Below the pieces are notes generated by a model, which ran no database searches, was not told the DNA's origin, and saw nothing but the letters and a program-made list of their open reading frames with translations. Below are positions 54,391 to 57,293 of a stretch of DNA of 64,000 nucleotides, in pieces; position 1 is the stretch's first letter, and each line of letters opens with the position of its first letter. Where the stretch lies: assembly GCF_018279165.1 (NCBI RefSeq), contig NZ_CP047289.1:1929001-1993000 (forward strand), given 5' to 3'. Origin of the DNA: Falsirhodobacter algicola. GTDB taxonomy: Bacteria; Pseudomonadota; Alphaproteobacteria; Rhodobacterales; Rhodobacteraceae. The translations under genes were made by a program, and so were the position numbers.

Positions 54391-54966
54391 ATGCTGCGCG
54401 CGATCTTTCTTTCACTCGGCCTGCTGGCGCTGACGGCCTGCGGGCGCAGCGATCTGGAGGAGCCGCCCGTCGATCTGGGCAATTTCCGTCTGGGCCTGAA
54501 CATCGCCGTGGCCGACAATGCAGAGAAGGTGCCGATCAGCCGCACCGCCACGCCCGACGAATGGGAAGAGGCGATGCGCAAGGCGGTGGATGACCGCTTC
54601 GGGCGCTATCGCGGCTCCAAGCTCTATAACATCGGGATCAGCGTCGACGGGTATGCGCTGGCGCCTCCGGGCATTCCGGTCATCGCCGCGCCGAAATCGG
54701 TGCTGGTGATCACGGCCAATGTCTGGGACGACGCGGCGCAGCAGAAGTTGAACACCGAAGGGCGGCAGATCACGGTCTGGGAAGATGCGGGGGCGAACAT
54801 CCTCGGATCGGGCCTGATCCGTGGCCGCGACCGCCAGATGGAACGTCTGGCCTACAACGCCGCCAAGAAGGTGGAGGAGTGGTTCCAGCAGAACCCGGAC
54901 TGGTTCGACATCCCCCAGAACGCGGTGCCCGCACCCGCCGATATGGCCGAGGATACGCTCAACTGA
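54391..54966 (+). CDS. Rhodobacteraceae lipoprotein of unknown function
   Basis: A 191-residue predicted lipoprotein. The lipobox LTAC places Cys at residue 17 after MLRAIFLSLGLLALTA. The body contains FRLGLNIAVADNAEKVPISR, WEEAMRKAVDDRFGRYRGSK, YNIGISVDGYALAPPGIP and WDDAAQQKLNTEGRQITVW. No known domain recognised. The region ends 87 bases before tuf. GGAGACC lies before the ATG. Confidence 0.85.
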   Translation: MLRAIFLSLGLLALTACGRSDLEEPPVDLGNFRLGLNIAVADNAEKVPISRTATPDEWEEAMRKAVDDRFGRYRGSKLYNIGISVDGYALAPPGIPVIAAPKSVLVITANVWDDAAQQKLNTEGRQITVWEDAGANILGSGLIRGRDRQMERLAYNAAKKVEEWFQQNPDWFDIPQNAVPAPADMAEDTLN

Positions 54967-55053: not shown

Positions 55054-56229
<1,176 letters not shown>

Positions 56230-56512: not shown

Positions 56513-56731
56513 ATGAAACGCATCGCTCTCGCTACTGCTGCACTCGTTGTTTTTGCAGGTATGGCTTCCGCCACCACGCTCTCCTCGCAAGCCCAAGTGA
56601 CGCTTGATACCCTGGCGCCCTCCGTTCAGGCTTCCGATCTCTCGCCGATCCAGGCGAAACTGATCAACCGCGCGGTCAACTCGAACGAAGGCCTGACCAG
56701 CTCGGACCTGGCGACGATCCTGCACAACTGA
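56513..56731 (+). CDS. Small exported protein, first of a related pair
   Basis: A 72-residue protein with signal peptide MKRIALATAALVVFAGMASA. The mature part (52 residues) contains LDTLAPSVQASDLSPIQAKL, a Leu/Pro motif also found in the following gene (LETLEPNLDISTLTPIQINE). The ATG at 56513 is eight bases after AGGA; an ATG at 56507 is too close. No domain recognised. Likely a periplasmic helical peptide. It has its own terminator. Confidence 0.75.
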   Translation: MKRIALATAALVVFAGMASATTLSSQAQVTLDTLAPSVQASDLSPIQAKLINRAVNSNEGLTSSDLATILHN

Positions 56732-56755
56732 TCGGATCTCGTCCCCGACGATGCG

Positions 56756-56779
56756 AGCCGCCCCACTCGGGCGGCTTTT
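56756..56779 (+). terminator. Terminator after the first small exported protein
   Basis: AGCCGCCC / GGGCGGCT stem followed by TTTT. Confidence 0.8.
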
Positions 56780-56874
56780 GCATGTCCGGTGGGAACCGTT
56801 TCCAAGGATCGGGTGTTGGGACGCCGTGACCGCTGACGAAGCGGAGAACGTGACACAGTGTTTGGAGTATGAAG

Positions 56875-57117
56875 ATGAAGACGATCATGACGACGACCGC
56901 CGCCGCCCTTATCGCTCTCGCCGGTGCCGCCTCGGCGCAGACCGCCGCACCGGGCGACCTTCAACTGTCCTCCGGCGCGATCGAGCAGCTGGAGACGCTG
57001 GAGCCGAACCTCGACATCTCGACCCTGACGCCGATTCAGATCAACGAGATCAATGAGGAAGTGAACGGCGACGGCCTCGACCAAGGCGAGCTGATCACGA
57101 TCCTTGAAGATATGTGA
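56875..57117 (+). CDS. Small exported protein, second of a related pair
   Basis: An 80-residue protein with signal peptide MKTIMTTTAAALIALAGAASA. The mature part has LETLEPNLDISTLTPIQINE then NEEVNGDGLDQGELITILED, which vaguely recalls an EF-hand loop (NGDGLDQGE) but has no full second hand. It shares the Leu-x-Pro...L-[ST]-P-I-Q core with the preceding protein, so the two are diverged duplicates. GGAG lies seven bases before ATG 56875. Function unknown. Confidence 0.75.
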   Translation: MKTIMTTTAAALIALAGAASAQTAAPGDLQLSSGAIEQLETLEPNLDISTLTPIQINEINEEVNGDGLDQGELITILEDM

Positions 57118-57140
57118 TCGCCTCGGCATCGCGCCGATCG

Positions 57141-57174
57141 AGGGCCGCCCCAACCGGGGCGGCCCTTTCCTTTT
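57141..57174 (+). terminator. Terminator after the second small exported protein
   Basis: AGGGCCGCCCC / GGGGCGGCCCT stem, short AACC loop, then TTCCTTTT. Confidence 0.85.
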
Positions 57175-57217: not shown

Positions 57218-57293
57218 AGGAGTTTAGCTCAGTTGGTAGAGCATCGGTCTCCAAAACCGAGGGTCGTGGGTTCGAGTCCCTCAACTCCTGCCA
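57218..57293 (+). tRNA. tRNA-Trp (anticodon CCA)
   Basis: A 76-base cloverleaf. AGGAGTT pairs with AACTCCT (acceptor), GCTCAGTTGGTAGAGC is the D arm, and the anticodon stem TCGGT/ACCGA encloses loop CTCCAAA with CCA anticodon. The T arm has GGGTTCGAGTCCC; 3' CCA is encoded. Follows a terminator and precedes secE. Confidence 0.97.

Follow-up and report, generated by a model that had tools for sequence, protein, structure and literature searches.

An undescribed Rhodobacteraceae family of small exported proteins at the tuf/tRNA-Trp/secE locus

A pair of small exported paralogs in Falsirhodobacter

The window (the whole 64,000-nucleotide stretch of Falsirhodobacter algicola DNA that was analyzed) carries two adjacent small genes, P1 and P2, followed by the gene for tRNA-Trp and by secE (Table 1). 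Each is preceded by a Shine-Dalgarno sequence located 7 to 9 nt 5' of the ATG codon (AAGGA in P1, GGAG in P2). On direct reading, the n-region is basic in both, a hydrophobic stretch follows, and an AxA site is present as well; both products are predicted to be Sec-type exported proteins. The P1 terminator was missed by the terminator scan because its T-run is too short; similar hairpins are found in most congeners. In a BLASTP comparison, P1 and P2 share 23 of 50 residues (46% identity over 50 aa, E = 1e-10 for this single comparison), with the common pattern LSSxA...LxTLxP...L[ST]PIQ...IN..VN...GL...L.TIL. The first-pass annotation of this DNA had described two small exported paralogs of 72 and 80 aa with separate terminators between tuf and tRNA-Trp, which agrees with the alignment and with the coordinates in Table 1. 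It had also considered them otherwise diverged, which is not the case, because the similarity extends through the entire mature domain to the C-terminus.

Table 1. Features of the P1/P2 locus (positions in the window)
Feature	Position	Strand	Details
tuf	55054..56229	+	Upstream landmark
Candidate OmpR-family (CenR-like) site upstream of P1	56399..56413	+	TCACGTTTTTGTAAC; CenR matrix score 11.5; tentative
P1	56513..56731	+	72-aa exported single-module protein; ORF MKRIALATAALVVF...ILHN
P1 predicted signal peptide	~56513-56572	+	
P1 mature domain	56573-56728	+	
P1 intrinsic terminator	56757..56779	+	GCCGCCC-CACTC-GGGCGGC-TTTT; by eye
Sigma-EcfG-like promoter of P2	56792..56817	+	GGAAC...GTT (GAAC-N18-GTT; GGAAC-N17-TGTT); 82 nt 5' of ATG
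P2	56875..57117	+	80-aa exported single-module protein; ORF MKTIMTTTAAALIA...LEDM
P2 predicted signal peptide	~56875-56937	+	
P2 mature domain	56938-57114	+	
P2 intrinsic terminator	57140..57167	+	Terminator scan
tRNA-Trp(CCA)	57218..57293	+	Downstream landmark; adjoins the family across Rhodobacteraceae

The tandem of a P1-type and a P2-type gene is present in 7/7 Falsirhodobacter genomes, at the same site and co-directional with tRNA-Trp; in Falsirhodobacter sp. alg1 (L095), the locus comprises five genes, arranged P1-P2-P1-P1-P2. P2-type genes group together in a single clade (support 0.995). The dN and dS values of ortholog pairs are 0.05 versus 0.41 and 0.08 versus 0.36 (the closest pairs) and 0.15 versus 1.0; dN/dS is ∼0.1 to 0.4 between orthologs and often <0.1 between array copies. 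With dN far below dS in ortholog pairs, P1 and P2 encode proteins under purifying selection, and their retention in all seven genomes, together with these values, marks them as real genes.

The mature proteins are of unusual composition. Neither contains any aromatic residue or cysteine, and mature P2, with a net charge of -13, is also devoid of Lys, Arg, and His. Their per-residue cost is below that of all 52 (crudely called) window genes compared, and their codon bias ranks with that of nusG and secE, the reference genes in this case being neighbors. Such cheap composition and codon bias fit exported proteins that are probably abundant. Trypsin has no Lys or Arg to cleave at in mature P2, so that tryptic proteomics would overlook the protein; this may be one reason why no report of it was found.

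The module family and its home locus in Rhodobacteraceae

A contig search with P0002 as the sole query gave no match; a later one with profile A3 retrieved five named congeners. A profile built from the 17 sequences of the genus detected three copies in tandem in a related genus (G388, E = 7e-25), along with numerous weaker matches in Rhodobacteraceae. Matches of profile A2 that rested on signal peptides only were discarded, and A2 was replaced by the signal-free profile A4; cytochrome-like L012 and L021 and the substrate-binding protein L013, matched in the P0002 search by their signal peptides only, were discarded as well. Removal of the signal peptides and iteration of the alignment yielded a module of ∼52 residues with the consensus STLTSAAEAELQTYAPNVDVSTLTDAQVNELNNAVHSGDSEGEKRAQIRAILRN and the pattern A-x-x-x-L-x-x-[YL]-[AV]-P-x-x-D-x-x-x-L-[ST]-x-x-Q ... 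I-L, located behind a signal peptide and Cys-free (0 Cys in 2,715 family residues from 53 non-redundant modules). P1 (E = 1.6e-14) and P2 (E = 5.6e-15) both match A4, a profile that includes the two sequences.

At E ≤ 1e-3, A4 recognizes family members in 48 of 197 near-complete Rhodobacteraceae genomes, about a quarter. In an order-level draw, 43 of 196 genomes carry matches, every one of them within Rhodobacteraceae, and a class-level draw of 193 Alphaproteobacteria contained only one genome with a match outside the family, a marginal one (E = 5.5e-4). The profile search of Alphaproteobacteria suggested in the first-pass annotation thus did find relatives, the clear ones being confined to Rhodobacteraceae. 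Its remark that no known family came to mind also stood up, as comparisons with Pfam, NCBIfam, PHROGs, PADLOC, and PDB sequences returned nothing significant, and no description of the family was found in literature searches. There were no matches among phages, plasmids, and viral contigs, and therefore no sign of phage or plasmid origin. Judging by their sequences, P1 and P2 belong to a family of exported Rhodobacteraceae proteins that consist of ∼52-residue modules; this family is undescribed and is absent from the databases searched.

The first 18 genomes outside the genus were picked purely by sequence match, and in 12 of them tRNA-Trp lies inside the fetched stretch (∼2.5 kb on each side). 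Of the 20 genomes whose best A4 match had E below 1e-10, 16 have a family member within 4 kb of tRNA-Trp, a count subject to bias in that A4 holds three modules from loci fetched for their nearness to nusG; the chance of a random place being that close is ∼0.2%. The exceptions are G150, G197, and G256, plus G132, whose array ends at a contig end. In most genera, the single-module genes are located between tuf and tRNA-Trp on the strand opposite to tRNA-Trp, often as tandem arrays of sometimes near-identical copies, and an exported protein of 2 to 4 modules is often encoded between tRNA-Trp and secE, also opposite to tRNA-Trp. Falsirhodobacter, G388, and G250 differ in that their single-module genes point the same way as tRNA-Trp; a multi-module gene was not found in them. 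The region between tuf and tRNA-Trp had been called a very conserved place; it is not, because the interval varies from ∼250 bp to ∼5 kb across Rhodobacteraceae. The tuf/tRNA-Trp/secE interval is the variable home locus of the module family across Rhodobacteraceae, which allows finding its members in any genome of this group.

Tandem arrays of near-identical genes include at least 6 neighboring copies in G122, four each in G031 and G303, and three each in G295 and G132; proteins of 2 to 4 modules were found in L073, L147, L127, L123, L170, L176, L119, and L129. Several arrays are close to contig ends (L182, L069, and L070 in G122; L071 in G132; L072 in G295; L175 in G031; L178 in G109). Near-identical tandem copies therefore probably break short-read assemblies, so that the true copy numbers are under-counted. 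G416 carries a three-gene array in two nearly identical versions (L170, 5349-6042; L171, 3761-4454), one beside tRNA-Trp and the other away from tuf and tRNA-Trp, which is suggestive of a recent duplication or gene conversion. Several diverged members with altered N-termini or locations away from tRNA-Trp (L185, 7032-7742; L177, 5085-5612; L189, 7364-8012) possibly represent further subfamilies.

AlphaFold2 models, for which the window proteins were aligned with their counterparts from the five named congeners, consist of three helices in both mature P1 (pLDDT 94, pTM 0.77) and mature P2 (pLDDT 85, pTM 0.69), and the module is predicted to be a compact three-helix domain. Fold searches with both models against PDB and with P1 against BFVD gave no match with E < 1; the best Z, 4.6 (VIA), may reflect no more than a common helical arrangement. 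Neither solved nor viral structures supplied a convincing relative. For a predicted bundle as small as this one, a missing structural relative marks the fold neither as new nor as known.

Two groups of well-known periplasmic proteins invite comparison. HdeA and HdeB are likewise small (precursors of ∼80 to 110 aa), Sec-exported, helical, stress-linked, and encoded by neighboring paralogs. However, HdeA/B have a conserved disulfide, whereas the module family is free of Cys and has no sequence match to them: P1 and P2 did not match the Pfam and NCBIfam HdeA/HdeB models, one distant member matched NCBIfam HdeA (NF007576) in the signal peptide only (E = 0.2), and the Foldseek match to HdeB (4xvv) is noise (E = 3.7 to 5.9). 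Spy and CpxP are also small, exported, all-helical, and induced by envelope stress. These proteins of about 140 aa form a cradle-like dimer and carry LTxxQ motifs, to which the S-P-I-Q/T-x-x-Q string of the module family bears a superficial resemblance; the Pfam LTXXQ (Spy/CpxP) model gave no match, and the Foldseek match to the Spy-complex entry 6owz (E = 2.4) is at noise level.

Promoter signals upstream of the module genes

The site upstream of P2 (Table 1) resembles the EcfG motif published for Sphingomonas, GGAAC-N17-20-GTT (PMC6599016). The GAAC-N17/18-GTT signal precedes 8/10 multi-module genes and, with the window counted, 6/8 P2-type genes. The corresponding counts are 4/88 for single-module genes and 6/254 for the regions 5' of secE, nusG, tuf, and tRNA-Trp (Fisher p = 1e-7 and 6e-6). 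At 5 of the 6 P2-type sites found, TGAAC replaces GGAAC, which leaves room for a different ECF sigma factor; in two congeners the P2-type site is degenerate (GGAAC...CTT). In most congeners, the GTT of the P2-type promoter is followed after ∼6 nt by a conserved block, CCGTAGCCG (∼56823-56833 in the window), which may be the transcription start or a 5'UTR element.

NepR is the anti-sigma factor of the PhyR-NepR-EcfG cascade. It scored above the cut-off in all 16 genomes tested, including that of the window (G000), and, judged by NepR, the cascade appears to be present in this genome. In a positive control, GGAAC-N16/17-CGTT was detected in 15 of 16 nepR loci (L190-L205), usually at the expected nepR intergenic position. 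In the nepR intergenic regions of L192, L194, L196, L197, and L201, overlapping GGAAC...CGTT sites are found on both strands and are presumably face-to-face EcfG-like promoters for nepR-ecfG and phyR. The multi-module genes and P2 of the window share the promoter GGAAC-N16/17-NGTT with the EcfG regulon and may be under EcfG control; none of the papers found reports the module family as part of this regulon, and its membership is proposed here from the promoter sequences. In Rhodobacter sphaeroides, the PhyR homolog and the PhyR/EcfG cascade have a role in defense against membrane stress (PMC5830050), which fits a periplasmic product. The link to stress that was guessed in the first-pass annotation thus gains support from promoter motifs.

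Array genes outside the genus carry a different element, centered at CGTGATTTC and comprising two or three GTGA half-sites, ∼100 to 130 nt upstream. Of 63 non-redundant upstreams, 10 contain a pair of GTGA half-sites at spacing 21 and 11 contain one at spacing 22 (∼0.2 expected for each), and spacings 10 to 12 are represented in 4 to 5 upstreams each; P1 of the window has no clear triple GTGA repeat. Repeats phased in this way are typically seen with OmpR-family regulators, and the array genes could well be controlled by an OmpR-type response regulator. The CenKR/CenR envelope regulon of R. sphaeroides likewise shows phased TGA direct repeats (TGA-N8-TGA) upstream of genes for exported proteins (PMC9275681). 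A CenR matrix built from 31 sites in that work is enriched upstream of the multi-module genes (8.8 versus 4.9, sd 0.65) and weakly enriched upstream of P1-type genes, whereas the array genes show no enrichment (5.7 versus 5.5). On this basis, CenR was set aside as the array regulator. The two promoter signatures make regulation of the module family testable.

Possible roles of the module proteins

Few marine bacteria are as abundant as Rhodobacteraceae, and little of their envelope stress response has been mapped. What is new here is the protein family, together with its unusual locus; small, stress-induced periplasmic proteins as a kind are already known. The observations to be accommodated are the paralogy, the family, its fixed location, the tandem copies, the selection, the predicted fold, and the promoter motifs. 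A reading that accommodates them, held at somewhat below an even chance, is that P1 and P2 are cheap, abundant periplasmic proteins of the envelope stress response with a holdase or buffering role, controlled by EcfG and an OmpR-type regulator and adjusted in dosage by tandem duplication. Following Sec export and removal of the signal peptides, they would work as small soluble proteins, probably abundant, in the periplasm or extracellularly. EcfG would switch on P2 as well as the multi-module protein that relatives encode between tRNA-Trp and secE, and the OmpR-type response regulator would switch on the single-module array genes. Single-module proteins would provide many soluble copies, with tandem duplication in place raising the dosage, and the multi-module protein would provide linked copies of the module. 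As a first guess, held with modest confidence, the module would most likely bind exposed components of the envelope in the manner of a holdase or a ligand buffer; a chaperone, a buffer, and a binding bead are indistinguishable from sequence. More tentatively, the positionally fixed tuf-tRNA-Trp-secE region may constitute an envelope stress locus throughout Rhodobacteraceae, in which arrays of single modules under a response regulator are combined with an EcfG-controlled multi-module protein. These would form a new class of periplasmic chaperones or binding proteins, the quantity of which is set by tandem amplification at the locus.

A similar set of data could be produced by secreted adhesion or matrix modules, where the three-helix domain, single or in strings of 2 to 4, would be a binding bead holding envelope or extracellular polymers, with stress control reflecting the timing of matrix formation. 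Reuse of the module in one to four copies, the acidic, aromatic-poor composition, and the very rapid sequence divergence between genera at a fixed locus would all suit such a role. However, the genes are not accompanied by a dedicated secretion system, nor by a lipobox, an anchor, or an LPXTG-like motif, and the signal peptides indicate the periplasm only. Adhesion is unlikely, if still a serious competitor.

Calcium binding through a divergent EF-hand-like loop, GDGLDQGEL in P2, is improbable. The NGDGL...EL segment of P2-type proteins resembles an EF-hand or dockerin loop, and the strongly negative charge of P2 would be in keeping with it, but the register is wrong. The EF-hand loop has 12 residues, D-x-D-x-[DN]-G-x-[ILV]-x-x-x-E; that of P2 is one residue short, with the hydrophobic residue at G+1 rather than G+2 and the acidic one at G+5 rather than G+6. 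P1-type proteins and most family members lack the acidic positions, no EF-hand Pfam match was obtained, and this assignment was rejected.

Being small, exported, tandem, taxonomically restricted, and rapidly diverging, the module proteins could also be taken for bacteriocin-like antagonists that diversify among strains. This is quite improbable, given that the copies of an array remain nearly identical to one another in any one genome and show dN well under dS, that the interval contains no immunity gene or transporter, that PADLOC, phage, and plasmid matches are absent, and that the proteins have no C-terminal hydrophobic or cysteine-rich toxin features. Hardly credible is the notion that the array, tandem, variable in copy number, adjoining tuf, and missing from most Rhodobacteraceae genomes at the sensitivity of A4, is a selfish or neutral recombination product of the tuf region that brings no benefit, as the low dN/dS ratios between orthologs and between array copies and the conserved promoters, ribosome-binding sites, and terminators all speak against it.

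Two other elements were noted in the vicinity of P1 and P2. A lipoprotein-like ORF is located immediately 5' of tuf (window ∼54420-54966, plus strand), and proteins of this type (CAR...PPVxLGDFxLGFxVVVAxxxQKVPISR...) are encoded at the same position in many Rhodobacteraceae genera. Further downstream, the window contains a Rhodo-rpoB cis-regulatory RNA (RF03074; 60835-60928, plus strand, 72.6 bits), a known family that is expected there, presumably upstream of rpoB.
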